From positions 62,001 to 126,000 of the forward strand of contig JAACJM010000060.1 in assembly GCA_013368315.1 (NCBI GenBank): a DNA stretch of 64,000 nt. The letters are read 5' to 3'. This document shows positions 17,959-62,865 of the stretch, piece by piece (the stretch's first letter is position 1; each line of letters starts with the position of its first letter). The translations under genes were made by a program, and so were the position numbers. Source of the stretch: Tetrapyrgos nigripes. Taxonomy: Eukaryota > Basidiomycota > Agaricomycetes > Agaricales > Campanellaceae. Below the pieces are notes generated by a model. The model searched no databases. It was not told where the DNA came from and saw only the letters and a list, made by a program, of their open reading frames with translations.

Positions 17959-18070
17959 TTGACCTCGTTAGAGCAATGTCCTACCATTACCAACCTCCCA
18001 ATCACTTTTTTACTCACCTTGCCTGCCGCTCTACACCGACTCCAACCCAACCACACCACGTTACCATCCC

Positions 18071-19872
18071 ATGTTGTGCACTATCAGATTAAACCCAGTC
18101 AGGTGGCTTCCTGCTCAAGGTCGCTTCGGTTTGACCAGGTTTAGTAACACCAAGACAGAAGACTTACTACTAGGCCTAGCTGCTGGTCGAAACAATGAAG
18201 ACTCCGACAGCTGGAGTTCAAGTTGGTGCAGCTGCGAGGATCATGACGTTCGCATATGCGACCCAGTCTTTTCCGGGTTCACTATTCGTGGAGATGATTC
18301 TTCTATGCATGACCTGGACATGCATATGAACCTCGATGCTACTCCTAGCGAGCCCTCGTCTCGTCTTCCTCTTCGCCCTCGCAATCTCCCCGAAGACTCT
18401 GCTCAAGTGGACACCGGGGATCCCGTCAGTGACGTCCATTGCGCTGGCGCTACGGCCACTTCAGAAGATCCTCGTTCTCGTCCCGGCAAACACGACCAAA
18501 AGTCCAGCACTAGACAAAGCCGCCAAAACAGGCCCCAGCGTTCCTCACGAACCGAAACCGACATCTCTGAAGCGCAGAAACAGCAGGTCGAGGACTTGCA
18601 ACGCCGTCTAGATTCTGACCGTTGTCTTCACGAGAGGATAGAACAAGAGCTGCGGGTCCAGATAGAAGAGTATTTGATACATATCCACGCGCTTGAGCAG
18701 GAAGGGCAGAAACTGTCCTTGCAACTCGAGAAATCTGAAGAAGTTCAGGCCAGACTTCAGAATGAAAAGCGTCAACTTACCGGAGAGTCGGCACACTATC
18801 AAGGCCTCAAAGAACGTCTTCAGAAACAGGTGGAGCAATTAAACCGGGAAAACAGTCATAGTCATTCCTTCAAGACGCAGTTGGCGAGCAGCGAAAAGGA
18901 TAGGAAGAACTTGGAAGAGATTCTCGCTATGAAATCGGCGGAATTGCAGAGCGCACAGGCTTTTCTCCGCATGAACGACAATATTTCAGGAGCCGATGTT
19001 ATAAGGATTGTCAAGAGGTTGAACCAAGAGATTGGGGCTCTTGCGGCGCAGATTGTTGCCTCTGAGGAGATGTTTGAAGAGACGGCTGAAGGAGATGTCA
19101 GAGGACGGGACAGGAATGAGGAGCTCGGTTACATTACCGGAGTGCTGGGAAAAGAGGCTCTCAAGTATCTTGACTCGACGAAGGGAGAGGAGATAAACGA
19201 GTTGGCCGCGCAGTGTACTTTGCAAGCCTTGCTCCTAGACTTCTGCGTTAAACTCATCTCAAGCTGGTCGTTGCAGACAGACATTGATGTGGTGTTGAAG
19301 AGTATGTATGCTAAGTTGCGGCAGACTGGTGAGTTCTCCATTTACCGAGCAGATGACGCACATTTACTCACTTCGTTTTTTGTCCCTTTCCAGAACACCA
19401 AATCATATCAGGAAAATGGAGAGCTCTGACCTATGCTCTCTGCAGAACCGACGTCTTCGGCGGACAAGCCGACAACGATGTGGTTATCGCACGCCTCACT
19501 GACCTCGTCACTGTGTTCCTAGAACGCTTGATTGCTCCCGAGCCCGAAAAGAAATACAAGGTCAATGACAAGCAACGATCCTGGATGACTACAAAGGTGT
19601 CTTTCATCCTCGAGCTGGCCTCACAAATCAGCAAGGTCATCAACGAAGACGTTATTTCCACCAACTTTGAAGTCTTCTGCGCGCGTCCGTGCGAAAAGCT
19701 CGATGCTGAGATGATGAAGAATGACGTCGGCAGGCAGTCCGATTTACGAGGCAAGGATGGTCAGGTCTTTTGCACGACTGAGATGGGACTTCGAGAGGTC
19801 ACGGTCTGCGAACAACCGGCCATGGTTCTCTTGAAGGTAAAGATCATGCCTGATTTCGAGTTGAGGGTCTGA
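18071..19872 (+). CDS. Paralogue 3 of the SGADV-domain family: coiled-coil protein, 578 aa, two exons
   Basis: Exons 18071-19328 and 19394-19872; the 65 nt intron joins in phase (QT-E-HQIISGKWR). Residues about 1-155 are acidic and low complexity. About 155-300 form a long coiled coil (QQQVEDLQRRLDS onward, then LQLEKSEEVQARLQNEK). At about 300 the conserved segment starts: FLRMNDNISGADVIRIVKRL followed by LNQEIGALAAQIVAS, matching paralogue 1. The C-terminal half, with LTDLVTVFLERLIAP, matches paralogue 2 in order and spacing. Paralogue 1 probably has this C-terminal part outside the window. No known domain name can be given. The first 40 residues (before SNTKTEDLL) are less certain. Confidence 0.82.
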
Positions 19873-20436: not shown

Positions 20437-23400
20437 TCAATTGCGACAGACTGGGCCAGGACCGAACTTGTGGTTCAACGGCACCATGCAACTACGAAAA
20501 CATTTAAAATTGGGTAATTATGCTCACAGGTCATGAAGAGCTCACCCATTTGACCCTTTGGGTGCAAGGTTCACGCAGCAAATTTCACCTTGTGGACACT
20601 GTGAAGATGATATCCAGTGAGCATGATTTTAGTAGTATGCCTTCAACTAGGGTTCCAAAAGTCCGGTTCAGTCCGGTTCAGCAACAAATTTTTTGAACGC
20701 CGGACTGAACTTGGCGTCCGGTTCTCAAATTTTCCGAACTTTGGACTGGACTTCAAGTTCAGTGAACTTCGGTCCAGTTCAAGTTCAAGCAAAGTTCGGA
20801 CGCGTCCGAACCCCTTTCTCGCCCGATATGGCCGAAAACTCTTGTAAACGGCAGCTACGATAGATACATGAAATAATAGATACTTACTGTAAAATAGTGG
20901 CAATATTATCAACTAGATTCCTCTCCCTCAGATCCACTGTCCTCGTCCTCTTCAAAATAATATTCTTCCAAAGCTTTTTGAAGGTCCTTTACATGCTCAG
21001 AAGCTTGTTGATGAGCGGAAATATGTCCGTTGCAGTAAGCAGCTTTGAGAGTCTGAATGGCTGCAAACATTTCCGGTTTCAACCTATTGCGGCACTTGTG
21101 ATCAGTGAGGCCTGCGCTTGAGAATGCTCTCTCTGACGGTGCTGCAGAGCCCTGGATGGCCAGATAATCACGCGCCATGCGTGAAAGTGTCGGATAAGTA
21201 TCTTGATGATGCTTTGATTGACTCAAAATTAGAACCTCGTTGTGAACAGATTGATTGGAAAACTTACACCCCACCACCAAATGACATCAAATTCATTTAC
21301 TTTACCGTCTTCCCGTTGTGGCTGAGGCTCGAGTGGGCTTTCTAGATAAAGTCGTAGTTCTGTTCGAGGATCAGAACTTATAGCTGCATCGGCACGCAGC
21401 CTGTCTTGAATAGCGGCCATCATCCAGCTATGGCCAAATCCACTACCAGTATTAGCTGTAGGGTATGCATATTAGTGTTTGATTACAGATATTCTGATAA
21501 CAGACATACTTTGAGCACTTGAGGATGAGGGATTAGAAGGAGTGCCTTGTTGCGGCTGAATGTAATACTTGTCGAACTAATGATCAGAAGTTAACTATAG
21601 ATCACTCATGTAAAAATAAATTTCACTTGCCTCATGCTCCAATGCGGCCATTCCGACCTGAACCCAATCCCTATGCCATTTTCCTGAGACATATGCAAGT
21701 TTGATTGTTGGATTCAGAACTGAAATATCATGAGCATCCATAAAGATTATAATGAGATGCCAAATTAAACAGACCAAGAGTAATAAAATATGCAGGGCTA
21801 TCGTCAACTTTATTGTACCACTTATCAATATTTTCAATCCCTCTGAGCAGTGCTGACTTGACAGGCAAGAATCGAGTGTTCTCAGACATTGCAACCCACA
21901 TTGAACGCATATACTCCAAAGTGGGTATAGTTTTTGAGAGTGTAGGATGGCGAGAGCTGGAGAATGACTGAGTTGCTTGAGCAGGGAGCTATACCAACGA
22001 CATTTCATGAGATATAATTATATTTCACATCTCTACCTACGTACCGACAACACCTCATGAACTATTTTGAGGTGATCCCAATCAACACAACTCATGCGGT
22101 AGTCAAGATAGGACTTGTTCTTCAATTTCGGAACACTTTCATTGTCATCGGCAGTTTGCGTAAAAAGAATAATTGCCTAAGTTGAACAAGTGAATACCTT
22201 CTCTCTGAAGAAACGGAGAGATTGCATACCTTTTCAAGAACAATTACTCTATCCAACGCATCATGCAGAGAAGCCCATCGGGTACGAATCCAGAGTCTCA
22301 ATTCAAGAGGCCAATTATTCGTTGAGATACAGCATTTTCTGAAATATGCACGAGCCTGAGGAGAAGCACGTATCTGTACCCAAACGTCAATGCAAAGCAA
22401 ATACGATGCAAAGAAAACATACCTGTCTGATTAGGGCCAAAACCTTTCCAACTACATCACCTGGCGCAAACTCATTGATTTCATCCAGATCTTCGTTTTC
22501 GTTATCCTCAGGTTGCTCTGGATCTGGGACAGCGATATTACTAGTAGATGTTGGGGTAATTCCCTTGGTGAAAGCCCCAGCAGCTAGATGAACGCAGTGC
22601 TCCATACACCTAAGATCATGTCAATATACATCCATAAATGAAATCTGAAAAGCAAGTCACCGAATGCGGCGCTCAGAAGCGTTCCAGAATTCAATGTCAT
22701 CGGAATCCAGTATGCCACCTTCATCAGCCTGGTTGAGAGTGGTGGCAATGCTTCTCACAGTGGTATCATTGTTCGATGCGTTGTCTGCAGTTTGCCAGCC
22801 CAGCTGGTATATAAATACAAGTGAGAATGAATGATACAAACACAGGATCAACAGAAACTCACCTTGTTACGATCAATTCCAAACTTCTCAAAGGCTTTCA
22901 TCAAGACAGCTGCCTGATTGGCACCAGAATGATGTCCAAAGAATGGAGCAAATTCTAGTTGCTCGCATTCAAGTGTCCAATCATTAGGATGATCCTCTGG
23001 TGCCCAAATATAATGCGCCGTAATAGACATATATGGATCGCAAGGATCAGATGTCCACAAGTCAAAGGTGGTTGAAACCTTACCCGGAACACTCTATAGT
23101 TCGTTGTAGGGTCTGTGAATAGCCCGTAAAAAATAAACATAAAATTCCTTACAGCTATCTTTGCCTTGATTATCTTGATGACAGATTCTGCGCGTTGCAG
23201 AATCTCGTTTCGGAGAGTCATGTCGCAGATGAAATCCTTATCTCTTATGGCTGGCCGACAAAACTGTAAGAGATGCCGAAATGCTGGGCGAGTAACAAAA
23301 CGCAACACCTGTTTGTTATCAAATTTAAGAAGTCAGCTTCAAATTATTGGTAAGATAGTTAGCATACCTTATCCTCGAGAACTACAAGCTCCACAATGTA

Positions 23401-26400
23401 GTCACACAGTCCTGCAATACTGAATTCAACAGTAGGTTGTTTAACAACAACACTGTCCAGCATAGTTTGCCTGAAAAATTGATCAGTACTGATCAGTAAG
23501 CACTATTTCAGATGCCCACCTTGAAAGATCATTAGACGAAGCTGGTATTGCTGAAGCATTCATTGTAACACTCTTTTTCTCACAAAGGTCTTTATAAACA
23601 GTGAAATGGTCCTTATTGCTGAAATTTGTGCCATTAGAATACTGGTAGGCAAAAAATCAATATGTCACACACCGTGCAATGTGCTTGCGAAGGCTGGTCA
23701 CACTCCCAGTCAGAAAGCAAGTTTTCGTTGGTAGCTGTTTCCTCCTGTGACAAAAATATTAGAGAATTTCTTAGGGCATATACTGCGAAGAGAAGATTAC
23801 CTGCAAATGCCACATATGTGGCCTGACTGTTACGTTGGTGTCTGGGTTGGTGCGTTCTGCCTTCTCAAAGATCAGATAAATGTCTTGAGTACGGGATGCT
23901 TTTGAGAGAGCCGCAACAAGGACCTGTGAAGACCAGGTCAGTATGAACAAATCAGTAAATAAAATCAGTGATGTACCTCGCCAGCGTTGAATGATTTCAT
24001 GGTATCATAGTCCAACAGCTGAACCTCTGACTCATCATCGGTTTCTGACTCTGCATCATCCAAAGCATCCATATCAACATCGGAGGTATCAAGATCCATT
24101 GCATCATCTGGGCGCTTATTCCGACTTGGATTTTTTGCTACTTTGCAAGCGGCAGGACGGCGTTCTGAACTTGATGAGGCCTTGCGCTTGCCATTGATGC
24201 TAGGAGTGTTGTTTTCAAGCATCTTTTGGGTAGGACGACGGGTTCGGGTTGATTTACGCTGACCAGCAACAGTTTGAGCTTGAACATGTCCACGTGAGGT
24301 AAGAACATCAAATGTGTTCCGAACAGTCTGAGATGTAGAAGGAGGTGAAGACGAGGTCTGAGCACCAGGAGGGACAACGGTAGGATCAGGATCATAGTCC
24401 CACACAATCTGAGAGGCATCAAGAAGCTCGCTGTCTGGGCCAAGAGCACAGTTGTTGCTGCTAGTGACTGCTGCCATGGATCTTGCAAAAACTTGAAGCT
24501 CACCCTGGGGTATTTATACCTTTGGAGCTGCGCCAGCAGGCAGATGAATGTTCCACAGGGTAGAGAGGGTGGAATGTTGCCTGTAGCTCATCGAACGACA
24601 CTGTTCAGCAGGGTGGTGAGGGTTTGTGAAAGAAAAAAAAGTTTCAAAGAAATTAGTGAATTGGAAGCTGACCTGAAACTTTGCTTGTAACTCAGCGAAC
24701 AATGCTAGTGCTGCTATCATTTGGCTAACGGCGTTGTTTGCATTGAAAAGCTGACGAAAAACACGCAGATAATAGGCACAAAATGATATATTTGGCCTAG
24801 TAAAGGAACAGAAACCCTATATGCCAGCGCTGTACAATAACAACCTACCCAGAGACTTGGCGCAAAACAGACAGGCGCGGTGGGCATTGAGGAGGAGTGC
24901 ACATGGTAGTTGAAGACAGAGACACATTTCGGGTGCCTTAAAATTCTGCTTACCAAATGGGTTTCTTTACCGGTTCGAACGCGTTCGGACGCGTTCGGAT
25001 GCGTCCACCAATTCCGATGGCTGGTTGAACCGTGGACTGAACCTGCAGTCCAGTTCTCAAAATTTCTGAACTTTGAGTCGAACTTCCGGTTCAGTCCAGT
25101 GAAGTTCGGTCCGGACCAAGGTTCAGGACCGAACTTTTTGAACCCTACCTTCAACAACTCGGAGTAGTGATGTGCCGGCTAGGGCTCTGAGCCCTGAGCC
25201 AGCTGGAGCCGGGCCCTAGTAGGCCGGGCCAAGCCTGAGCCCTTGAACCAGCCTACGGCTCAGGCTTTGAGTTTTGAAAGCCCTTTGGCCCCGGCCTGAG
25301 CCATCCAATATCATGCAGGCTCAAGCCGAATATATGCTGCCTAAAACACAGTTATGTAATTTCTTGCATACCAAATGTCATCTTTAGGGAGGTTTCGCAA
25401 TTTTGGAGTTTGAGGCTGAGTATGCGCATCGTGTCCTATCGCATCGCAAACTGGCATGTTTGTACATATTTGTGCGCCACAGTGGCTGGGAAGGACCCCT
25501 GTGCTTGACTCTCAACGTCCTCCACAACTGAAATATCCCTAAAATTTTGGCCTCAACATGTCAATGTAGCCAGTGCTTGACACCATCTTGCCTTCAAACT
25601 AGTGATGTAAACGGTCGGCTATGGTCCGCTCCGGCTCAGCTCTTTGTCAGAGCCGGTAAAATCGACTCGACTCCGACTCTAGCCGTTTAGAGTCGGTGAA
25701 ATCCAATCGTCTACGGAAAAAAGCAAACTATTGCTACCTACAAAGCTGAAAGGCTATCTCAAGTCTGTAAATAGTATATATGAGTAATTTAAAGTAGTTT
25801 TACCTGTGTATTTTACGAATCACAAGAATGTTTGCAAAATGAGGTGTAAGCGAGGTCGTGGGAACATGCCAAGGATGACATGACGAGGTTCGACAACTTC
25901 AATTTCCAACAAGGCTGACAGGCTCCAGCCATCTTCATAAGGGAAGTGAGGAAGCCAATGCTTGTTGGCATCTCTGAAATGGAACTCTGACTGCTCCACA
26001 CAGACAAAATTTTTGACCTACCCTAGATGACTCGAGCCGCGAGCCAGTCAGAGCCGAGCCGCGGCTCTAATACCGGCTCGGCTCGTCGGCTAGCCGCTGT
26101 CGAGTCGGACCGTTTACAACACTACTTCAAACCATTCCATAGACCTATAAACCACTCTCACAAGTCTCTTTTTTTTTTCTACCAAAAGCCGGGGCTAAGC
26201 CTGAGCCGGGCCTGGGCCCTACTGTAGGGCCCGGCTCATGAGTCAGACCTGGTCAAGCCGGGCCCTAGCCGGGGCATTTGAGCCGGGCCGGAGCCGTCAC
26301 ATCACTAACTCGGAGGGAACTGACATTAGCATTAGTCTTGCCTATACAATGACGTTGATAAGTAGACGAAGCCACGTATAAGGTTTGACGTACATGTTTT

Positions 26401-26466
26401 GCTAGCAGGACTGCTGCTGACGAGGGCAAGCAGGGAAAGAAACGAAATAACTTTGAATGCGTACAT
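20437..26466 (-). CDS. Small six-cysteine secreted protein A, 65 aa; second intron inflated to 5.7 kb by hAT elements
   Basis: Exons 26466-26394, 26341-26325, 20598-20546 and 20491-20437 (73, 17, 53 and 55 nt) make 66 codons with every phase intact and GT-AG at all introns. The product has a signal peptide (MYAFKVISFLSLLALVSSSP) and a mature part with cysteines spaced C-x5-C-x5-CC-x10-C-x13-C, identical in spacing to copies B and C downstream. The second intron, 26324-20599, is 5726 nt. Removing the two insertions and their duplicated 8 bp targets leaves 67 nt, like the sister genes (65 and 77 nt). The role is unknown; size and cysteines fit fungal secreted effector-like or defence peptides, and the CC motif slightly recalls WAP/knottin folds. 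Whether so long an intron is still spliced is the open question. Confidence 0.8.
20648..25147 (-). mobile_element. hAT transposon, 4500 bp, probably autonomous
   Basis: The ends are inverted: TAGGGTTCCAAAAGT on the left and the complement of TAGGGTTCAAAAAGT on the right. Both are followed by sub-terminal repeats built from GTTCGG/CCGAAC words. An exact 8 bp target duplication, CCTTCAAC, flanks it at 20640-20647 and 25148-25155, the hallmark of hAT elements. It carries one multi-exon transposase gene on minus (20909-24477) and nothing else. It sits in intron 2 of the small secreted protein gene A, in the same orientation as that gene. Confidence 0.93.
20909..24477 (-). CDS. hAT family transposase, multi-exon, apparently intact
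   Basis: Catalyses excision and insertion of the element around it. Read from the ATG at 24477 through roughly a dozen short introns to a stop at 20909. Parts in order: acidic Ser/Thr-rich N-terminus (24477-23975); a BED-type zinc finger with TCFLTGSVTSLRKHIAR near 23700; the RNase H-like core, first Asp in TFDLWTSDPCDPY near 23045, second in GWQTADNASNND near 22790; a CMEHCVHLAAG motif near 22610; a WWG with the dimerisation domain at the end (YPTLSRMARDYLAIQG, then SAAPSERAFSSAG, 21190-21110). No stop or frameshift was forced on me, but I did not fix each intron edge. The acidic tail ends SGSEGEESS. Confidence 0.88.
25165..26307. mobile_element. Non-autonomous hAT element, 1143 bp, long G/C-rich inverted ends
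   Basis: The ends TAGTGATGTG...CACATCACTA are flanked by an exact 8 bp duplication ACTCGGAG (25157-25164 and 26308-26315). Behind the tips both ends are rich in gccgggccc words in opposite orientation. No coding capacity. Its left target duplication lies one base from that of the 4500 bp hAT element, so two hAT elements chose nearly the same spot in a 67 nt intron. It carries a further element inside (25600-26124). Confidence 0.92.
25600..26124. mobile_element. Nested non-autonomous hAT element, 525 bp
   Basis: The ends TAGTGATGTAAACGG and CCGTTTACAACACTA are inverted; an exact 8 bp duplication CTTCAAAC flanks it (25592-25599, 26125-26132). It lies wholly inside the 1143 bp element and is therefore younger. 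The ends contain gccgactc/gagtcgg words. No coding frame of note. Confidence 0.92.
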
Positions 26467-26520
26467 GACCGAAGAGCGTTCAGTTGAAGGACTGATGGTA
26501 ATGAGCCTCGACTTCCCTGC

Positions 26521-26527
26521 CTTTATA
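26521..26527 (-). promoter_or_regulatory. TATA box of small secreted protein A
   Basis: TATAAAG on minus, 55 nt upstream of the ATG at 26466. The upstream region to about 27300 has no other supported feature; it separates gene A from the 3' end of gene B. Confidence 0.55.
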
Positions 26528-27305: not shown

Positions 27306-27721
27306 TTATCCCTGAAGACAGACTGGGGCAATACCGAATCCAGGGGGAAACGGCTTGATGCAGCTGCAAGAAATTGAATCTTGAGAAACAGCTGTTCGTT
27401 TTCAAATGCCTGGCAATGCAGGGGACTTACCCATCAGAATCCTGAGCCGCGAGGTTTATGCAGCAAATTTGATCTTCTGGACACTATCGAAAATTCCGAC
27501 CAAATTACGGGTGAGTATAATTTTCCTTGAGTTAGACTATACCAACGATCAACTACTAACGTCGCAATTGCTCTTGCCTGCAAAGGATCATCAATGATAT
27601 ACGAAAACGAAGAACGGTTAGGCGGTATATTATACTCACATTTCTCTGTCGTATTCTGAGCATCCTGAGCGCAGGTACTGCCAATGATGGCAAGGAGGAA
27701 GAGGAACGAAAAGGTGTACAT
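27306..27721 (-). CDS. Small secreted cysteine-rich protein B, 69 aa, four exons
   Basis: Exons 27721-27640, 27577-27561, 27483-27431 and 27363-27306 (82, 17, 53 and 58 nt; 70 codons). The signal peptide starts MYTFSFLFLLAIIGST and ends near CAQD. The mature part keeps the C-x5-C-x5-CC-x10-C-x13-C spacing of copies A and C, with one extra Cys in the first loop (KSNCD). An in-frame ATG 21 nt upstream is rejected as start because the TATA box (27755-27762) is too near it and the paralogues begin at the inner Met. An alternative reading with introns retained gives the 110-residue frame 27434-27766, which loses the cysteines. Role unknown. Confidence 0.82.
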
Positions 27722-28205: not shown

Positions 28206-28381
28206 TACAGTCGGATATCTCATAATGCATTATCTCATACTGCATAAATGTCATAATGCATAAGGTTTTGGCAGAACAAAATGGCCTTTCCCCCCCAAAT
28301 CATATCTCATAATGCATAAATGTCAAAATGCATAAGGATTTTCTGGAACGAACCCTATGCATTATGAGATATCCGACTGTA
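28206..28381. mobile_element. Tc1/mariner-type MITE, 176 bp including TA
   Basis: Perfect 25 bp inverted ends, TACAGTCGGATATCTCATAA on the left and its complement on the right, with TA at the tips, as expected of the Tc1/mariner group. Internal repeats of cataatgcataa extend the hairpin. It lies between genes B and C. No coding capacity. Confidence 0.88.
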
Positions 28382-28716: not shown

Positions 28717-29123
28717 TTATCCGTGAAGACAGACCGGGCCGATACCGAACTTGGGGTTCAAGGGCACGATGCAGCTGCAAGAAGTTCAAGAATTAGCTTT
28801 TTGTTTTTCGTTTCAAGTGCCTGACGATGCAGAGGACTTACCCATTAGAATCTGCAGGGGCAAGGTTTACGCAGCAGATTTGACCTTCTGGACACTGTAT
28901 AGAGCGTTCCGAGTGAGTATAATTTTTCTTGAGCTAGACTACACCAATCATCAACTAACATCGTCATTGCTCTTGCCTGTAAAGGATCAACGATCATCAG
29001 TGAACAAACAAAGAAAGATTTGCAAATGGTATATAACGCACATATCTCTGTCGTATCCTGAGCATAGGTACTGCCAATGACGGCAAGGAGGGAGAGGAAC
29101 GAAAAGAGCTTGAAGGCGTACAT
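28717..29123 (-). CDS. Small secreted cysteine-rich protein C, 69 aa, four exons
   Basis: Exons 29123-29042, 28976-28960, 28894-28842 and 28774-28717 (82, 17, 53 and 58 nt), the same structure as B. The signal peptide is MYAFKLFSFLSLLAVIGSTY. The mature part has C-KSNDD-C-PEGQI-CC, ten residues, C, thirteen residues, C. The final exon contains NPKFGIGPVC, close to A (NHKFGPGPVC) and B (PPGFGIAPVC). All GT-AG introns are 58-66 nt. Exon 2 is only 17 nt, so no single frame reveals the protein. Function unknown; secretion is a firm inference, a host- or microbe-directed role is a guess. Confidence 0.85.
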
Positions 29124-30915: not shown

Positions 30916-31765
30916 TAGTGTTGCCGGAAGCCAAGGTCAAGTTGACCTGAAGTTCCCGAACGGACCGCGCTTGAGGTGCCTTGAGGCGGCTCTTCCTTAA
31001 GGCTTCTCAAGGTGCCAACCGGAAAAAGTAATAGGCTCTGTCACGCTATTAGACACAGGTAGCCAGGTAGATAGTGTACTCTTTTCTACATTACATTGAA
31101 ACCTCCATGGCTGACTCTGCGACCGAGATCGAGACCAGTCCCATTTGGCCAAGATGGTGCCGAATATGTCGCACCACCGTTGACCGCTCTCATCGTACTC
31201 AACACCCAGGTATCATTGATGCCCTCGCCGATCCAAGCTCTGATTCGGAAGTTGATTATGGCAATACTCCCACCAAAAAAAAGAACGGGCTCAAGCGCGC
31301 AGCTAGTGATTCGGAGATGGATGATACATACAAGAAAACAAAAATAAGTGTAGTTTTGAGGATTGGAAGGCAGTTGGGACGACATGGGGACCAGAGGACT
31401 GTCAAGGACGGGCCAAAGGGACATCTGCAAGCCTCTTAAAGGCGAGGGATAACGATGAAGAGATTTGATTTTGTATATGACATAGATACAGGCTAAAGGT
31501 ATAGCAAGCGGATAAAGGAAAAAGTGGGAGGGATAAGAGACGAACGGGTTGAGCACAACGCTCACATTGTCGAGGACGACGTAGAGAGACGACACGCTGG
31601 CTGACAGTCACTCGTCACTGACATGGACAGGTGATGAAGTGACGAGTGACTGTCTGGAATGGGAATCAGTCCCATCAAGGCCTTGGTTAGTGCCGATCGT
31701 CGGCATCCAAATCGGGACCTTAAGGCGCTCCAAGGTGCAAGCTACCTTGGCTTCCGGCAACACTA
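30916..31765 (+). mobile_element. Non-autonomous hAT element, 850 bp
   Basis: The ends TAGTGTTGCCGG...CCGGCAACACTA are inverted for over 20 bp; the exact 8 bp duplication AGCTGGTT is at 30908-30915 and 31766-31773. It keeps a remnant of a transposase N-terminus (31107-31439). A 17 bp perfect hairpin, 31603-31619 with 31638-31654, may be a smaller element or an internal fold. Confidence 0.92.
31107..31439 (+). pseudogene. Fragment of a hAT transposase N-terminus inside the 850 bp element
   Basis: The frame starts MADSATEIETSPIWPRW and has a zinc-finger-like WCRICRTTVDRSHRTQH, then an acidic Ser-rich stretch and KKKNGLKRA. This looks like the DNA-binding end of a hAT transposase with the catalytic part deleted. 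It could bind element ends but not move them. Identification rests on the context and the Cys/His pattern. Confidence 0.5.
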
Positions 31766-35360: not shown

Positions 35361-35514
35361 GACATGAAACTAAACTCTATTTAAACCAGTTTCTTCTGCG
35401 TGCTTGAATACCAATCAATGGCTTTGAGGGCCTACTACACTACTCCTCCCTATACTCTTTTACGTGCCAATGCTGCACGCCGCCTGTGGTCAGACGGTCA
35501 GACAGTCGTCTGTC

Positions 35515-36543
35515 TCAGCGTAGAGAAATAGGCACAGAATTGTGATGGTTTTCGTTATAGGAGCGAGGGCTTAGAGGTGACTTCTCGTACTCACGAATGG
35601 ACCTGGGGCTGTCGAACACCGGATCCTCAGCATAACCTGGCACTTGCGTCCCCGCTATCCAGGCTGCTATGGACTGGTTGTCCATATAACCATCGGCGCA
35701 GTCGTATGCAGGCGTACTCTTTGCTCCTTGCGGTGGTGTTAGAGGACAAGGCTCAGAGTTCGACGAAGCTTCTTCCGACTCGTAACCCAGCAGCTCCGGC
35801 GCTGGCTCTATCGACCAGTCCGGAACCAAATCCATCAACCCCTGTATCACCAAAGCACCCCAATCATATAGCGCTTCTAGTCTTTTATGGTCGATAAGAA
35901 TGCAAAGAGAGCTATGATATGCAGCATGAAAGGGGTGGACGGAAGATGTAAAAGTTGGTAATCCATCATAAGGGTACTCAAAGCATTGCTCCTTCTTGGT
36001 TACTGGATTACGGACATACAGCGGACCTTTGAAGGAGCCGGTTGCGAGAATGTATTCGTAAGGGTGAACGGGAAACGACTGCAGAATGGTCAGTTTATCA
36101 AGTATAAGAGAATAAGCTTGAGGACGCACTTCAGTATACGGCTGGTGAGATCGTGCATCTGATTTACGTATCCTGACCATTTCCTGCAAGGTCTGTGGGG
36201 TGGGCACAAAGCAGAGCTTTTCTTTACCCAGTAAAGCAGCGATGTCCTTTCGCACTAACAATCTCGTCAAAGACTATTCCGGAGAGAGTCATTAGTTCAT
36301 GCGCACCTGAGAGTTTGTTATGAGAAGCATTGAAGTCTATTCCACCTCTTGGCACTCCCCAATTATACTCGAGAGTAGCCAACTAGTGCAGAGTAAGTTA
36401 CTGAGATACAGACGAAGGATCTGACTTACCTCGCGTGGAGATAACAGGTGCTTGCCTGGTCGAAGGAGTCGATAAGAGCGGGGTTCTGACGCGAATGAGC
36501 TCGCCTTGGTAACCAGAGAGTCGCAAGGATAGACGTTGGACAT
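35515..36543 (-). CDS. Repeated-family gene, copy 1 (resembles the C-terminal part of basidiomycete HNH-type proteins), 309 aa
   Basis: Exons 36543-36430, 36382-36307 and 36254-35515; phases join and the last acceptor is the TTAG at 36258-36255, giving NKLSVRKDIAALLGKEKLC. Recognisable words: LATLEYNWGVPRGG, SHNKLSVRKDIAAL, KLCFVPTPQTLQEM. This block resembles the region after the HNH nuclease in many agaricomycete proteins; the nuclease residues themselves are not seen, so no activity is claimed. The C-terminal 100 residues are acidic and Pro/Ser-rich and end NHHNSVPISLR. Four copies exist in the window. Confidence 0.65.
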
Positions 36544-37069
36544 TGCAAGTGGACAGTATGATGACGGAGAGAGTCAAGAAAGGGTCAGGGTCGCGGTTCG
36601 ATAGGTTTTTTATTCCTGTTTTGGGGAACAATAGGTCAGATTACGAAACCTACCGAACCGAAGCCTTTGTCCAGTGGTATGAAAGGCACCAGAGACATTG
36701 TTCAGACAGGGCTGATTACAGCCTAATCAACGAAAGTCGCCATAGCAAAATCCTTTGTACAAGTTGAGAAAATAGCACAAATCCAGGAAAAGGTATTTGC
36801 AGATGAAAGAATTTGGTGAAGGCGTCATCGAGCAGGACGAAGATGCATATTTATTATTAAGGTAGACTTCGGCTGTTGAGATGCCGTTTTTGGTAATTTC
36901 TTGTTCTTTTCTACCACGACTACCGCAAGCTCAACGTCTTCAAAAGTGATACTTTCTACTGGTATGTCATTGTATATACCTCAAAATTAGTTACTTTCAA
37001 AGTAATTCTACAGTCACTTCAAATCCCTACCGAGCACTCCTCCCTATTCAGATACGGTGATATCCTTCA

Positions 37070-39615: not shown

Positions 39616-39826
39616 TACTATTTGGCTCGTATTTAGATAATCTACATGGAGAAAATGTATTCTAAAAGTACAAATCCATTAAGGTAAAGATACAGCGAGG
39701 AAATAGATATGAAGGGAGAGCCTTGTCCTCTAAACCCCGTTCCATCTCGCGGAATAGCCCAGAGTCCCGCGCTACGTGCCAATGCTGCACGCCGCCTGTG
39801 GTCAGACGGTCAGACAGTGGTCTGGC

Positions 39827-40858
39827 TCAGCGTAGAGAAATAGGCACAGAATTGTGATGGTTTTCGTTATAGGAGCGAGGGCTTAAAGGTGACTCCTCGT
39901 ACTCACGAATGCACCTGGGACTGTCGAAAACCGGATCCTCCGCATAGCCTGGTACTTGCACGCCCGCTATCCAAGCCGTTATGGACTGGTTGTCCATATA
40001 ACCATCGGCGCAGTCGTATGCAGGCGTACTCTTTGCTCCTCGCGGCGGTGTTAGAGGACAAGGCTTAGGGTCCGACGAAGCATCTTCTTCCGACTCGTAA
40101 CCCAGCAACTCTGGCGCTGGCTCTATCGACCAGTCCGGAACCAAATCCATCACCGCCTGTAGCACGAAAGCACCCCAATCATATAGCGCCTCTAGTCTTT
40201 TATGGTAGATAAGAACGCAAAAAGAGCTATGATATGCAACATGGAAGGGGTGGGCAGAAGATGTAAAAGTTGGTAATCCGTCATAAGGGTGCTCGAAACA
40301 TTGCTCCTTCTTGGTTATTGGATCGCGGACATACAGAGGACCTTTGAAGGAGCCGGTTGCGAGAATGTATTCGTAAGGGCGGACTGAAAATGACTGCAGA
40401 ATGATCAGTTTATCAAGTATGAAAGAATAAGCTTGAGGACGCACTTCAGTATATGGCCGGGGAGGCCGTGCATCCGATTTGTGTATCCTGACCATTTCTT
40501 GCAAAGTCTGTGGAGTAGGCACAAAGCAGAGCTTGTCTTTATCCAGTAAAGCAGCGATGTCCTTTCGTACTAACAATCTCGTCAAAGGCTATTCCGGAGA
40601 AAGTCATTAGCTCATGCATACCTGAAAGTTTGTTATGAGAAGCATTGAAGTCCATTCCACCTCTTGATACTCCCCAATTATACTCGAGAGTGGCCACCTA
40701 GCGCAGAGTAAGTTACTGAGATACAGACGAAGGATCAGACTCACCACGCCCGGGGACAAGCTGTGCTTGCCTGGCCGAAGGAGTCGGTAAGAGCGGGGTT
40801 CTGACGCGAATGAGCTCGCCTTGGTAGCCAGAGAGTCGCAAGGATAGACATTGGACAT
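39827..40858 (-). CDS. Repeated-family gene, copy 2, 310 aa
   Basis: Exons 40858-40745, 40697-40622 and 40569-39827, the same splice sites as copy 1. The product is very close to copy 1: MSNVYPCDSLATKASSF, VATLEYNWGVSRGGMDFNAS, SVRKDIAALLDKDKLCFVP. One extra residue in the acidic tail. No lesion seen. Its upstream flank is cut at 40994 by a Tc1/mariner element. Confidence 0.62.
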
Positions 40859-40994
40859 TGCAAGTGGACAGTATGATGACGGAGAGAGTCAAGAAAGGGT
40901 CAGGGTCGCGGTTCGATAGGTTTTTTATTCCTGTTTTGGGGAACAATAGGTCAGATTACGAAACCTACCGAACCGAAGCCTTTGTCCAGTGGTA

Positions 40995-53932: not shown

Positions 53933-54817
53933 TCTTCTGGACCCTAGAAGCTCAGGTCTTGGCCTTGAGAACTTTTGGCTTTCTTTAGCCGCAGGTTTCC
54001 ATTCCGAATTGGGACGCATTTCTCGATGCATTGTTTTGGCCATCATGTGACCCGCTGGCTGTGCCAATCCTCTCAGACAAAACTCAACGACTAGCATAAC
54101 GCATAGTCGTTGTTTTATTTTTCCCTCATTTCTCTTGTACGTACTCAGCTATATCTGAGTATATTACCTTCCCTTCTTATAAGACTTTTACATAGCGGCT
54201 AGCTAGCTTATACCGTAGATCTACCCACCAGTACGCGAGCTGTCTTACCATTTGGCTGGTATTTGGGTAATCTACATCGAGAAAATCTCTGAAAATGTAT
54301 TCTAAAAGTACAAATCCATTAAGGTAAAGATACAGTGAGGAAATAGATATGAAGTGAGTCTTGTCCTCTAAACCCTGTTCCATCAATTACAAGCCTGTGC
54401 GAAGGTCCCACCGTGGAACAGCCAGAGTCCCACGCTACGTGCCAATGCTGCACGCCACCTGTGGTCAGACAGTCAGACAGTCGTCTGTCTCAGCATAGAG
54501 AAATAGGCACAGAATTGTGATGGTTTTCATTATAGGAGCGAGGGCTTAGAGGTGACTCCTCGTACTCACGAATGCACCTGGGACTGTCAAAACCCAGATC
54601 CTCCGCATAGCCTGGTACTTGCGTGCCCGCTATCCAAGCCGCTATGGACTGGTTGTCCATATAACCATCAGCGCAGTTGTATGCAGGCGCACTTTTTGCT
54701 CCTCGCAGCAGTGTTAGAGGACAAGGCTCAGAGTTGGACGAAGCATCTTCTAGCTCGTAACCCAGCAATTCCGGTGCTAGCTTTATCAACCAGTCCGGAA
54801 TCAGATCCATCAACCCC

Positions 54818-57573
54818 CAGTCCATAGCGTAGATATTCTGTACTGTATATACAGTAATTACTGGTGTGCCTGTTCTGCAGAACCTGCAGTAATCACTTGT
54901 GAGGCAAGCACTCCTGAATGCTGGATATCACTGGGACGTTTCTGGATCTACATCCATCAGGATGCCTTCCAGCTACATCCAGTAAGATATCCAGCATTGT
55001 TTGGTAAGCATTCTCTCCATCCAAAATTAGCTCACTAGCGCCCCATGTTGATACGGTGTGCCCATCATTAGTCGGTGTTTCTAAATATGCGGAATGTCGG
55101 TCAGGATCTTGCAATCCAGGATTTCTCCAGTGAGATCTACTGTGGAATCATTTTGCCAAATGGGAATTTCCTTTGATCCACTTGGCAGCTATGCTGCAGC
55201 CACACGCCGCACTGCTTCCTATGTTGGCTTCCTCATACGGCCATATGTTACGCTTTTATTAAAACCAGGCCTCCATACTATGTAGTACGATAGCATGAGA
55301 GTAGCATATTCCTCATGGACCGTGACCTGTCATCTCCGCTTTGGAGTAGCTTGTGTCAGTCTTCGGAAAATGCCATTGGGAACTGTCGGTTCACACGGAA
55401 TTTGGGGCCGAGAACAGCTGTTTTGGGCGCGCGATTCATTGTTCGCTTTTGTGGAAATGGATGTAGATGCACATTATGCCATGATCTCTTTATTGTCACC
55501 AATCTATCTATCTATCTATCTACAGGAATGGTTATATCTGCAAACCGATTGAGTAGCCACTGGCCCGGGGTTGGGCTTGCTGCGCTGTTCTCCTTGGCTC
55601 ATACCGTACACCTATACACGAGCACAAATGAAGTATCCAGTCATCAAGAGCATTCTTTAAAGAATAAAAAGATTATCTATCTCCCCTTTCTAATAAATTT
55701 TACGCACCAAATGTCAATTCGCAGTGAAGCACAGCAATTGTGGCTGAAGTGGTCATTATGCTTTATAAATTCTGGAGCGTGTATGATCCATTAGTTGTAT
55801 TCACCATGTGTAGAGCTGCTTTCTTATTAGCTTCCAAATCTTCTGGATGAAGATAAATGGCACCAACGGGCTGCATCTATAGTGTTCTTTGTTAATTCAA
55901 CATTCACACGCTGTTCTCAATACTATCTGGCTTGAACTACTAAAATCACTAACAGAGCCCAAAGATAGGAACTGTATAAGCATATGGACTCAATTTTCCA
56001 TCTTTTTGCGAAGTGTCAAAATATTCCGGGGAGTGTAGCAAGTGATGTATATGTTTGAGTATTCGGATGAAGCACTTTTTGAAGTTTTTGCATCACAAGT
56101 GCTTTTGTGAGCCTACGACTTCTGGCTAGTAATAGAATCACTGGAACACCTTATATCATTATTCAATACATTACCGTGGACATTTCTTCATTTTTTCACG
56201 AATTTCAAAGTACCAAATGGTACCTCTAATCCAAGACGAACATCCCGGATTGACCATTTTCTGAGAGTTTTGTGTCAACGTGCAAATATCTCTCGAAAAA
56301 TAAAGTATAACAGCCCAAAAAATATTCAGAGAATACTAATACATATGTAAAGACTTTACCGAACTTCTCCGAGGTCAAAGGTGCTCTGTTGATACAACAC
56401 AAGTCGAAGCAAAGACCGAGATGGCGCGCTAAGCGCCCACATAATGCGTGGAAATTGTAAGATCAAAAGTCTGTAAGATCAAAAGTCGTAAGATCAAAAG
56501 TCGTAAGATCAAAAGTCGTAAGATCAAAAGTCGTAAGATCAAAAGTCGTAAGATCAAAAGTCGTAAGATCAAAAGTTAAAGATCAAAAGCCTGTAAGATC
56601 GAAAGTATGTAAGACCAAAACAACCGTAACTAGACTGATATCCTTACTGGATACCATGCTGGACTGTTCTCATGCGTGCTGTATCTTGTGCTGTATCTGC
56701 CTTCTTTTTTTGTGTTACGAGTGGCGCATTCCAGGCATTGTCTGGGGTTGGGAAAAAAGCTCTCGAGTGTTCACTGAAGATACATGGTAAAATTTTGCAG
56801 GTATTCCGAGCAAATACAGATACTGATATCTGTACCCGCAGGTGTCAGTTTCCAATATGGAAACCAGGACGAAATCCAGCAGAGTATAAATCCTTGCTGG
56901 ATACCAAGCTGGATTGTTCCCATGCGTGCTGGATCTTTTGCTGTATCTGCTGATTGCAGGAACAGGGCTGGGAGATCTAAGAGATCTTCATTGTTTTTTC
57001 TGTCTTATGCGAAAGTGCTCTTTTCCAGGCATTGTCTGGCTCCGGGAATAAAGATGCGCCATAATGCAGTGGTTTTAACAGTACTAGTAGTGATACATGT
57101 GGTATCCCCAGTTTACATTGAATAAATCTCTCCTTATTTATGTTTCATGTTTGGACACATGTTTGAGGTTTGAAAAATGTGGATCTGGAAGTATATGATG
57201 GGTTGAAGAAATAACGGACGCCAGAAGATTAGGATTGATTCGGAACCAACCCTTCCTGGGAAAATCTCCTATATCCAAAAAAAATGGACTAATCCTAGGA
57301 TTCTCGTTAGATTTTCAAGTTGGGTAGGAAATCCCCTGGGACGGCGATCAAGGCCTGTGCTCGTTGTGTGCAATGAGGAGTGTGTCATTGTGCTCGGCGT
57401 GGAGCACAAGTATTAACATCACATGCAGCCTCATGCCTGATACAGCATGATATTCAGCATGCCATACAGGAATCAATGTATGCCTTTATAAGCCCTTGTA
57501 ACTACTGTATTTTCTGCAGACAGGCACGGCCAGTAGTACTGCAAATTCTGCAGAACTTCTACACCATGTTGTG
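54818..57573. mobile_element. TIR element of 2756 bp inside repeated-family copy 3
   Basis: Flanked by CAACCCC (54811-54817 and 57574-57580). The end regions are imperfect inverted repeats of about 80 bp: CAGTCCATAGCGTAGATATT against CACAACATGGTGTAGAAGTT, both continuing to ...TGCCTGT.CTGCAGA. Inside are a tandem array (56457-56620) and two related pieces with ctggataccatgctgga (about 56645 and 56897). No transposase recognised, so non-autonomous or of a superfamily I cannot name. Confidence 0.75.
56457..56620. repeat. Tandem array of a 15 bp unit, about 11 copies
   Basis: Unit gtaagatcaaaagtc, head to tail, with clean central copies and diverged outer ones (ctgtaagatcaaaagc, atgtaagaccaaaa). 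Minisatellite inside the 2756 bp element. Copies are directly adjacent with no spacers, so it is not a CRISPR array. Confidence 0.92.
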
Positions 57574-58707
57574 CAACCCCTGTATCACCAAAGCACCCCA
57601 ATCATATAGCACTTCTAGTCTTTTATGGTCGATAAGAATGCAAAGAGAACTATGATATGCAGCATGAAAGGGGTGGACGGAAGATGTAAAAGTTGGTAAT
57701 CCATCATAAGGGTACTCAAAGCATTGCTCCTTCTTGGTTACTGGATCACTGACATACAGAGGACCTTCGAAGCAGCTGATTGCAAGAATGTATTCGTAAG
57801 GGCGGACGGGAAACGACTGCAGAACGATCAGTTTATCAAGTATGAGAGAATAAGCTTGAGCACGCACTTCAGTATACGGCCGGTGAGGTCGTGCATCCGA
57901 TTTATGTATCCTAACCATTTCTTGCAAAGTCTGTGGAGTGGGCACAAAGCAGAGCTTTTCTTCACCCAGTAAAGCAGCGATGTCCTTTCGCACTAACAAT
58001 TTCGTCAAAGACTATTCCGGAGAGATAGTTCATACGCACCTGAGAGTTCGTTATGAGAAGCATTGAAGTCTATTCCACCCCTTGGTACTCCCCAATTATA
58101 CTCGAGAGTAGCCATCTAGTGCAGAGTAAGTTACTGAGATACAGACGAAGGATCTGACTTACCTTGCGTGGAGATAACAGGTGCTTGCCTGGCCGAAGGA
58201 GTCGATAAGAGCGGGGTTCTGACGCGAATGAGCTCGTCTTGGTAGCCAGAGAGTCGCAAAGATAGACGTTGGACATTGCGAGTGGACAGTATGCTACAGT
58301 ATGATGACGGAGAGAATCAAGAAACGGTCAGGGTCGCGGTTCGATAGGTTTTTTATTCCTGTTTTGGGGAACAATAGGTCAGATTACGAAGCCTTTGTCC
58401 AGTGGTATGAAAGGCACCAGAGACATTGTTCAGACAGGGCTGATTACAGCCTAATCAACGAAAGTCGCCATAGCAAAATCCTTTGTACAAGTTGAGAAAA
58501 TAGCACAAATCCAGGAAAAGGTATTTGCAGATGAAAGAATTTGGTGAAGGCGTCGTCGAGCAGGACGAAGATGGTTGAGGGTGTTGTTCCAATGTGTGAA
58601 ACCAATATTACTCCGAAAAGTGAGTACCTAACCTTGACCTAACCGCTTCTTATACTCTAGTACTGACAAAAACCTTGACCTTGTGTATTGTAAATACGCT
58701 GCAACAG

Positions 58708-59040: not shown

Positions 59041-59689
59041 TAAGACATGAAGCTAAACTCTATTTAAACCAGTTTCTTCTGCGTGCTTGAATACCAATCA
59101 ATGGCTTTGAGGGCCTACTACGCTACTCCTCCCTATACTTTTTTACGCCAGGGACTGGACAGACCAGGGCATTCCACCGTAACCATCTACTTCTGTTATG
59201 ATTCCTTTTCCCCATCGTCATTTCCTTTCACGGGTAATCGAACCATCCTTCGCCTAGTGCGTTTCGTTCTATAAAGCTTCAAGATCATGTCCGAACTGGG
59301 ATGATGAACCCGGGCCATCTCTCCATCGTTTTATTGACTTGCGGTCCAGAGGTAGTAAGCTCGCACAGCTCGACGTTTGTCTAGTCATTCTCGTCGGCGC
59401 AGGATTAGAGGGCCAGAGGATTCCTTTGGAGCGCAATATTTATCACTTGATGTACGCGTTACAGTTTTTTCAACACAAGCTGTCCTACTATTTGGGTAAT
59501 CTACATGGAGAAAATGTATTCTAAAAGTACAAATCCTAAGGTAAAGATACAGTGAGGAAATAGATATGAAGCGAGAGTCTTGTCCTCTACTAGTAAACCC
59601 CGTTCCATCTCGCGGAACAGCCCAGAGTCCCGCGCTACGTGCCAATGCTGCACGCCGCCTGTGGTCAGACAGTCAGACAGTCGTCTGTC

Positions 59690-60706
59690 TCAGCGTAGAG
59701 AAATAGGCACGGAATTGTGATGGTTTTCGTTATAGGAGCGAGGGCTTAGAGGTGACTCCTCGTACTCACGAATGCGCCTGGGACTGTCGAACACCGGATC
59801 CTCAGCATAGCCTGGCACTTGCGTCCCCGCTATCCAAGCCGCTATGGACTGGTCGTCCATATAACCATCGGCGCAATCGTATGCAGGCGCGCTTTTTACT
59901 CCTCGCGGCGGTGTTAGAGGACAAGGCTCAGAGCTCGACGAAGCTTCTTCCGACTCGTCACCTAGCAATTCCGGCGATATCCAGTCCGGAATAAGATCCA
60001 TCAACCCTTGTATCACGAAAGCACCCCAGTCATATAGCTCCTGTAGTCTTTTATGGTAGAGAAGAATGCAACCAGAGCTATGATATGCAGCATGGAAAGG
60101 GTGGACGGAGGATGTGAAAGTTGGTAATCCGTCATAAGGGTACTCGAAGCATTGCTCCTTCTTGGTTACTGGATCACGGACATACAGCGGACCTTTGAAG
60201 GAGCCGGTTGCGAGAATGTATTCGTAAGGGCGAACGGGAAACGACTGCAGAATGGTCAGTTTATCAAGTATAAGAGAATAAGCTTGAGCACGCACTTCAG
60301 TATACGGCTGGTGAGGTCGTGCATCCGATTTATGTATTCTGACCATTTCCTGCAAGGTCTGTGGGGTGGGCACAAAGCAGAGCTTTTCTTTACCCAGTAA
60401 AGCAGCGATGTCCTTTCGCACTAACAATCTCGTCAAAGACTATTCCGGAGAAAGTTGTTAGTTCATGCGCACCTGAGAGTTTGTTATGAGAAGCATTGAA
60501 GTCTATTCCACCTCTTGGTACTCCCCAATTATACTCGAGAGTGGCCACCTAGCGCAAAGTAAGTTACTGAGATACAGACGAAGGATCAGACTCACCACGC
60601 GTGGGGACAAGCTGTTCTTGCCGGGCCAAAGGAGTCGATAAGAGCGGGGTTCTGACGCGAATGCGCTCGGCTGGGTAGCCAGAGAGTCGCAAGGGAAGGA
60701 GACCAT
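59690..60706 (-). CDS. Repeated-family gene, copy 4, 305 aa
   Basis: Exons 60706-60596, 60548-60473 and 60420-59690. Same architecture as copies 1 and 2, with a different N-terminus (MVSFPCDSLATQPSAF), because the block is joined to unrelated sequence upstream of about 60695. No lesion seen. C-terminus as in the other copies. If any copy is expressed from a new promoter it is this one. Confidence 0.62.
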
Positions 60707-60968
60707 GATGTTGGTTGAAACTGAGGAGTACGCGTCTCTTTTGTTGACGTTTTCGCTCACGTGCTTACCATTGTTTACAATGTTTACAAAATGATATTCA
60801 TCTCCGCCTAAAAAATAGACTAGGTATGTATGTCGACCTGCACTTCACACGGCAGTGGCTGATTGAGATGATTGGTGCGCGTCAATTGGACTTTAATCTT
60901 TTGTTCTCAATTTGTTCTTTTTGCCGTTTGTGGGCGTAAGTGCTGTAGAGCGATCGTTCTGAAGAACA

Positions 60969-61025: not shown

Positions 61026-62865
61026 ATGCAGCCACCACGAGCCAGTAGACCCGAGCTTGGTGCGATGACCGAATCACCAGACGACTCCCCCACGAAAGCT
61101 CCTTCTAGAATCAGTAAGGACGCACACGATGACGCGGAACATCAGCCAGAGAACAACCCACACGAGTCTACCCCAGGCAAGATAGTCGGCGAATACATCA
61201 GAGACCTCGACGGTCCCTCGAAGAAGCGCCACGCCAAGGTCGTGCGCATCCCCGACAGATGTAATATCACCCAAGAAAAAGGGAAGAGTCCGGGAAACGA
61301 TGTCGACTGGTCTCATATCATTCCAAAGTCTCTTCAGAAAAAGGACGAGGTGAGTCGTTCTATGCGCCTTGACTGCCAGTATAATGACATACTTATTCAC
61401 ACTCTCTCAAAAGATGCGCACTATCTCGAGGCTACTTGGTGTTCCGGACTTGCACATTAATACCCGCGGCAACGTGATGAGATGTACGAGCCATCTTTCT
61501 TCCATTCGCAAGTTATCAATATGCTGACTGCTCTGAACAGTATCCACAGATAAACATCGAACACATGACGGTGGGCAATGGATTATCGCCCTTGAAGATC
61601 TCGACCTGTTAGAGGAGATCGTCGGTTTGATCAAAAAGAACCTCAAAGTCGACCAAGACACCGATTCTAAGGAAGAGGACCAGGGCGAGAACGAGAAAGA
61701 AGGCGAGGAAGAGGATGCAGCTCAAAGGGGTCCCATCGACTTGGTTAAAGTAAGTGGTGTTTTAAAATCTCATTTTGGAAGATGAAGACTGACTGCAGTA
61801 ATCACAGATGTACAATCCGGTTCCCGGAGAAAGGAAATGGACAGAGTACACGATCGTTCCTCTCGACGACAACCTTAAGCCTAGACGCATTCTTCAACAA
61901 GTCCTTGATGAGAATCCGGACGGTACCTTTTCCCCGCGAGAGCCTGACGGTCTCCATGTCATTAAACCCTTTGCCGATTTCAAGTTTAAGTCGCACCTCA
62001 ACCTTGCGATAGTGATCGTCCATGCTGCCCTGCGCATACGAGACCGCAAGATTTACCCAAAGGTCCAAGGAAATCCCAGCCTTCTGTGGCTCTATAGACG
62101 AAGCGAGGACTGGTTCAATCAGAAGGTTCCTAAATCTTTTCTTGCGCGCCGCAAGAAAGCGTTGGAAGGGTACGACAGGGTCGGCGGTCCGAGAACGGTC
62201 GATGGGGAATATACGAGCGGAAGCATCCACAGAACGAGCAGACACCCGAGAATGCACCTCCCAAAGACCCTTCAGTCGCAGACACGGATGATCGTATCAT
62301 TGTTGATCAAAACCTGAACGTCCTTCCCCCTGGCCCAGATGGCCAACCTTTTCCAGAGGACATCGAGGCCATCGAGGATATTGTGGCCGCGTTTAATAAC
62401 AGCCCTTCGGCCGGACCAGCAGAACGCCGCCAAATCCAAGCAGGTAAAGCCCCCAGCGTCATCACAGCTGAGAGCTTGGAAGAAAACATGTTCACTACCC
62501 GAATGAGAACTCAGCCGGTACTACCGACGAGCTATTACGCCAGTTTCCAGTTTACCAGCGAGCATGGGCCAGAGGTGTTGGAGGAATTCCAAGAATTGAT
62601 GAGAAAGTTTCGTGACTTGAAGATCACCTCCTCCAACCATCCGGGACTGCAGGCATCCGTGAAACTCGGAGCACCACCTGTACTGTGGTCAAGGGCACAC
62701 TCCGTGAAGAGTGCACCTGGAGGGAGCGAATCTGCGAGGAGTGGAGCAGGTGATAGAGAGGAAGGTGCTTCGAGGAAAAGGGTCAGAATCGAAGATGATA
62801 TACAAGAGAAGGGCAAAGAGAAGGAGGAGCAAGATCCAGATGTACAGTTTTTTCAGACGGGATGA
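61026..62865 (+). CDS. Protein of unknown function, 520 aa, five exons
   Basis: Exons 61026-61349, 61414-61438, 61541-61749, 61808-62179 and 62233-62865; all phases join. I do not recognise the family. Residues 1-70 are polar (Asp/Pro/Ser/His-rich). WSHIIPKSLQKKDE and GGQWIIALEDLDLLEEIVGL follow, then an acidic Glu-rich run at about 160-185 and a compact part with MYNPVPGERKWTEYTIVPLD and KSHLNLAIVIVHAALRIRD. After that comes a Pro/Asp-rich linker, a helical part (EVLEEFQELMRKFRDLK) and a basic KRVRIEDD near the end that could be a nuclear signal. Two joints are weak: the 25 nt exon 2 and the intron 62180-62232 with donor GTCGGC. A one-base change in the gggg at 62213 would replace the latter. 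Confidence 0.65.

Follow-up and report, generated by a model that had tools for sequence, protein, structure and literature searches.

In the agaric Tetrapyrgos nigripes, a gene with just 198 nt of coding sequence, here termed gene A, has probably been silenced or truncated by the recent insertion of three hAT elements (E1, E2 and E3) into its second intron, and would still look intact for lack of time to decay. The locus was analyzed within a window of 64,000 nt (positions 62,001 to 126,000 of contig JAACJM010000060.1), to which all coordinates given here refer, and genome searches were run against the 98.46-Mb assembly of 587 contigs. T. nigripes is a litter decomposer with a genome of about 99 Mb, and its genome paper also mentions an extraction of total RNA (PMC7368018). 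Transposons residing in an intron are a known kind of arrangement, of which the gene A locus is a young example; no description of this locus was found in the published work on transposons in fungal introns that was consulted. The locus provides a young natural experiment, with normal introns of 65 and 77 nt next door in the same family, and a single RNA data set would reveal how a fungal spliceosome responds to a short intron that has grown to 5.7 kb.

Gene A belongs to a small family of predicted secreted proteins

Gene A lies on the minus strand and comprises four exons: exon 1 (26394-26466, 73 nt), which carries the start codon and, as judged by eye, a predicted signal peptide; exon 2 (26325-26341), whose 17 nt equal the length seen in its two sister genes; exon 3 (20546-20598, 53 nt), which encodes CPQGEICC; and exon 4 (20437-20491, 55 nt), which carries the stop codon. 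These exons are separated by intron 1 (26342-26393, 52 nt), intron 2 (20599-26324, 5726 nt) and intron 3 (20492-20545, 54 nt), all on the same strand. A preliminary description of this DNA had proposed a four-exon gene split by transposons, with its splice signals and reading frame intact, and both proposals were borne out: the coordinates and the length of intron 2 agree, all three introns are of the GT..AG type, and the 198 nt remain in frame, encoding a 65-aa product with six cysteine codons. Intron 2 has the donor GTCAGT, the acceptor TTCACAG and a branch-like CTCAC motif at -23, as in sister gene C, and a TATA-like box identified by eye (TATAAA, 26522-26527, minus strand) is located 61 nt 5' of the start codon. 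A genome search with exon 1 returned only exon 1 itself.

Two sister genes, B (27306-27721) and C (28717-29123), line up next to gene A, share its minus-strand orientation and have a common four-exon plan, their exons measuring 82, 17, 53 and 58 nt in both cases, compared to 73, 17, 53 and 55 nt in gene A. The introns of gene B span 62, 77 and 67 nt and those of gene C 65, 65 and 67 nt, so that intron 2 has 77 nt in B and 65 nt in C versus 5726 nt in gene A, and the remaining eight introns across the three genes range from 52 to 77 nt. Over 69 aa, the product of gene C matches a hypothetical T. nigripes protein at NCBI (D9758_010731) without a single difference. When gene C, the only one of the three to be scanned, was compared with the Pfam WAP and DX models, it fell below both cut-offs (WAP 17.4 bits, cut-off 20.8; DX 20.8 bits, cut-off 25). 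Besides C itself, the protein relatives found were an 87-aa protein from Stygiomarasmius scandens, 63% identical, a fragment of 47 aa that begins almost identically and a weak match to a metagenome sequence of 62 aa, with no others. The dN/dS of gene A is 0.26 to C and 0.32 to B (dS 0.86 and 1.11, respectively), which shows a long constrained past, nearly all of it predating the insertions. Taken on their sequences, these comparisons show that gene A has long belonged to a small family of putatively secreted six-cysteine proteins.

Searching the genome with gene C identified A, B and C together with four places on another contig (C81); a further match on contig C341 (E 0.575) was dropped as chance. 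In all four paralogues on C81 (L081, L082, L083 and L084) exon 2 has 17 nt, exons 3 and 4 are fused and intron 3 is absent. All four also appear to contain a one-nucleotide exon, TAG/T/GTAAGT..ACAG/GTCC (GCCC in L082), in which the lone T flanked by ..TAG and GTAAGT.. would, together with the GT or GC that follows the further intron, make up the codon of the next cysteine. With this T included, the four paralogues share the C-x5-C-x5-CC spacing of A, B and C. An exon of one nucleotide has been described in Arabidopsis (PMC4674806).

Three hAT elements occupy intron 2

The first of the insertions met on the minus-strand intron, counting from exon 2, is E2 (25165-26307), a non-autonomous hAT element of 1143 bp that amounts to 610 bp once E3 and one 8-bp copy are subtracted. 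Its exact 8-bp target copies, ACTCGGAG, lie at 25157-25164 and 26308-26315. E3 (25600-26124, 525 bp), also a non-autonomous hAT element, resides inside E2 between exact 8-bp copies of CTTCAAAC (25592-25599 and 26125-26132). E1 (20648-25147, minus strand, 4500 bp), a hAT element with short terminal inverted repeats (TAGGGTTC..GAACCCTA), adjoins E2, with a single base separating their target copies, and is flanked by exact 8-bp copies of CCTTCAAC at 20640-20647 and 25148-25155. The proposed exact 8-bp target duplication was thus found for each of the three insertions. Removing them restores, by arithmetic, the expected intron of 67 nt (5726-4508-1151), a length previously equated with that of the sister genes; it is only near the 77 nt of B and the 65 nt of C.

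When the entire window was scanned for hAT-like ends combined with an exact 8-bp duplication, four hAT-like elements were identified, namely E1, E2, E3 and a fourth, E4, compared to a mean of 0.02 and a maximum of 1 in 100 shuffles of the window in 3-base blocks. The E1 relatives L024 and L026 have exact 8-bp duplications of their own, and among 12 other copies of E3 that were fetched, the duplication is exact in 11 and off by one base in the twelfth. Of the E2 copies, the four whose alignment reaches the junction from either side (L054-L057) are devoid of E3, with an overlap of exactly 8 bases between their two aligned pieces, indicating that E2 inserted before E3. At least 151 matches to the hAT dimerisation domain were detected across the genome. 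The elements thus resemble DNA transposons of the hAT superfamily and their MITE-like relatives in their 8-bp duplications, short inverted ends beginning with TAG and the presence of PF05699; they are otherwise ordinary, except that this copy of E1 has a frame-shifting deletion of 2 nt. Two of the E3 copies, L070 (contig C208) and L076 (contig C273), have identical flanking ten bases on both sides and probably represent either alleles or a single insertion duplicated together with the DNA around it. Several pieces of the E1 family, in both orientations and with 95-99% identity, also lie within 9 kb of contig C170 (151316-159864).

The transposase gene region of E1 runs from ATG to stop over about 3.6 kb (20909-24477, minus strand), with many short introns and in the direction of gene A. 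The hAT dimerisation domain (PF05699) is found in ORF 20909-21286 with an E-value of 1.1e-13 and a score of 51.2 bits, the cut-off being 21.4. The deletion, located between 23829 and 23830 on the minus strand, falls in a transposase exon and shifts the frame. Both deleted bases are present in all five other copies compared (L024, L025, L026, L027 and L028); the deletion could possibly be an assembly (long-read) indel error. A first splice model of the transposase, discarded, offered no open path; a wider model yielded 849 codons in L024 and also in E1, where this required switching frames around the deletion. With regard to a BED-type zinc finger, the L024 model shows by eye a C..C / H...H-like stretch, and PF05699 was the only Pfam match to it at E-values up to 1. 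The nested transposase gene had been described as complete; its direction and approximate length of 3.6 kb hold, and its completeness does not, given the 2-nt deletion absent from five relatives.

Age of the insertions and CpG changes

The nearest full copy of E1 (L024) is 99.42% identical to it, with 23 differences in about 4500 bases. Over the 4162 sites that are uniform among the other copies, E1 carries 13 private substitutions. Ten of these are C-to-T changes at CpG, compared to 0.69 expected (P 4e-11), CpG bases accounting for 221 of the sites, and the other three are distributed over the 3941 comparable non-CpG sites. When L026 is dropped as a reference, the private changes of E1 become 15, of which 12 are C-to-T at CpG and 3 are of other kinds. 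Private changes number 3 among the 573 sites of E2, with 2 falling at CpG, and E3 has none in 525 sites with respect to the 12 fetched copies; at least 21 other full-length copies of E3 show 97% identity or more among the 40 of 78 candidates that were scored. Since private changes may predate the arrival of an element, all these counts set a maximum for the time that has passed since insertion.

The CpG changes of E1 point to a family-wide methylation scar, and may predate its arrival in the intron of gene A. Private changes fall at CpG in 4 of 4 cases in L024 and in 5 of 8 in L025, and L027 has no private changes. E3, with a CpG ratio of 1.04, bears no such scar. The 5' half of gene A contains 22 CpG at a ratio of 1.13, and therefore gives no sign of spread there, the short time involved affording this comparison little power. 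Matches to the methyltransferase domain PF00145 are found at two places in the genome, and CG methylation in Basidiomycota is described as occurring chiefly in transposons (PMC7862722). The scar provides a handle on whether transposon methylation enters host transcription units in mushrooms.

The fate of gene A

The open frame of gene A is readily compatible with loss of function. Had the gene been dead since the insertion of E1, 0.15-0.72 substitutions would be expected in its 198 nt, and it would be lesion-free with a probability of 0.83-0.96 using four reference copies, 0.81-0.96 using three, or 0.845-0.96 with a looser denominator, where a lesion is defined as the loss of a cysteine, start, stop or splice dinucleotide and the indel rate is assumed to be one tenth of the substitution rate. 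With a dead gene lesion-free at a probability of 0.81-0.96, the open frame cannot separate a living from a dead gene A, and its intactness was rejected as support for function. That the protein collection lacks the product of gene A was likewise rejected as a sign of silencing: the product of sister B is missing too, in a search whose query alignment included the B sequence itself.

Very recently, E2, followed by the E3 nested within it, and in a separate event E1 entered an intron 2 of about 67 nt, leaving the donor of exon 2 some 5.7 kb away from the acceptor of exon 3. In the most plausible course of events, these sites would rarely be paired, because fungal introns are recognized by donor-acceptor pairing over a short intron; splicing in fungi is reported to proceed mainly by such intron definition (PMC2397502). 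Transcripts of gene A may then retain the intron, be spliced to nearer sites in E2 or end in E1, which lies on the same strand. Retention would lead to an in-frame stop in E2 (26265-26267, minus strand), 19 codons past exon 2 (ORF 26265-26522), and hence to a truncated product. A consensus scan places candidate acceptors inside E2 at 103-124 nt from the exon 2 donor, the nearest of which would define a cryptic short intron of 103 nt (26222-26324, minus strand). CpG methylation of the E1 family, as suggested by the scar, may add silencing at the chromatin level. Gene A would in this manner become silent or truncated, with sisters B and C remaining, and would appear intact because decay has lacked time. 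Counting against silencing, the exons, splice dinucleotides, branch-like motif and TATA-like box are all still present, E3 is free of the CpG scar, and gene A diverged from its sisters under constraint, though mostly before the insertions.

Parts of this scheme have parallels elsewhere. In plants, IBM2 is described as necessary for transcription through intronic heterochromatin, which triggers premature polyadenylation when IBM2 is lost (PMC7145194). The IBM2 targets of Arabidopsis and rice resemble gene A in having an intronic transposon, probably methylated, from which premature ending is expected (PMC7145194), but here the host is a fungus with introns of 52-77 nt and methylation is deduced from a mutation scar. 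In fungi with cytosine methylation, transposon-adjacent genes are reported to be repressed (PMC4905642). Among these, the basidiomycete Pleurotus ostreatus and other methylating species likewise have a transposon by or in the gene, with methylation proposed as the cause (PMC4905642); unlike the repression of transposon-near genes in P. ostreatus, the elements are here inside the transcription unit.

It is unlikely that the insertions represent one allele only, with a second nucleus keeping a short-intron gene A, so that the organism would still have a functional gene. The published T. nigripes protein set had been cleared of potential alleles by its authors (PMC7368018), which suggests that more than one haplotype was assembled; against this, flanks of 2639, 2885, 6001 and 1601 bases (13,126 in total) show no second copy of the locus, in a search that could not reveal a collapsed second allele, and match elsewhere only two 193-bp stretches at 71-72% on one other contig and a small repeat. 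Continued expression of gene A, with the 5.7-kb intron tolerated and removed whole or stepwise (e.g. with the short introns of the transposase going first), is unlikely too. It would agree with the intact frame and splice dinucleotides and with the untouched 3' end of the intron, including its CTCAC motif, and in rice, transcription is possible for genes whose long introns are heterochromatic (PMC7145194). However, the intact frame is weightless, all eight other introns of A, B and C are of 52-77 nt, intron definition predominates in fungi (PMC2397502) and the candidate acceptors in E2 are just 103-124 nt from the donor. Were it true, an intron about 80 times the usual family length and full of CpG-scarred transposons would be removed with the 65-aa secreted protein still made, implying a long-intron splicing route, perhaps stepwise, in a group thought to rely on intron definition. 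That gene A was dead before the insertions, or never expressed, is highly improbable: B and C may suffice, and the protein collection searched has C and neither A nor B, but gene A is lesion-free and its dN/dS to its sisters is 0.26-0.32.

Recent silencing by the insertions had been put forward in the preliminary description side by side with tolerance of the long intron. The dating makes silencing fully sufficient as an explanation, and the open frame, on which that choice had been framed, does not discriminate between the two. For a gene this tiny an open reading frame is a weak sign of life, since 198 nt are too few to record so recent a loss.

Other features of the window

E4 (30916-31765) measures 850 bp, is flanked by the exact duplication AGCTGGTT and has its nearest full-length copy at 95% identity. 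It interrupts an exon of a gene resembling SMP-30/gluconolactonase (PF08450, 34.3 bits with a cut-off of 26.3, matched by the part of the gene that lies downstream of E4). Between genes B and C lies an inverted-repeat element of 172 bp (28208-28379), at which nearly all of the 48 matches listed for the surrounding 2885 bases in the genome, pieces included, are found. For the ORF at 17975-19426, a homology search returned none of 7991 candidates at E-values up to 0.001. A large part of the window's right half is built of repeats several hundred bases long, mostly 79-100% similar to one another (35461-36651, 39773-40966, 54436-54817, 57499-58573 and 59636-60726), and a tandem array with a 15-bp unit, GTAAGATCAAAAGTC, spans 56458-56607.
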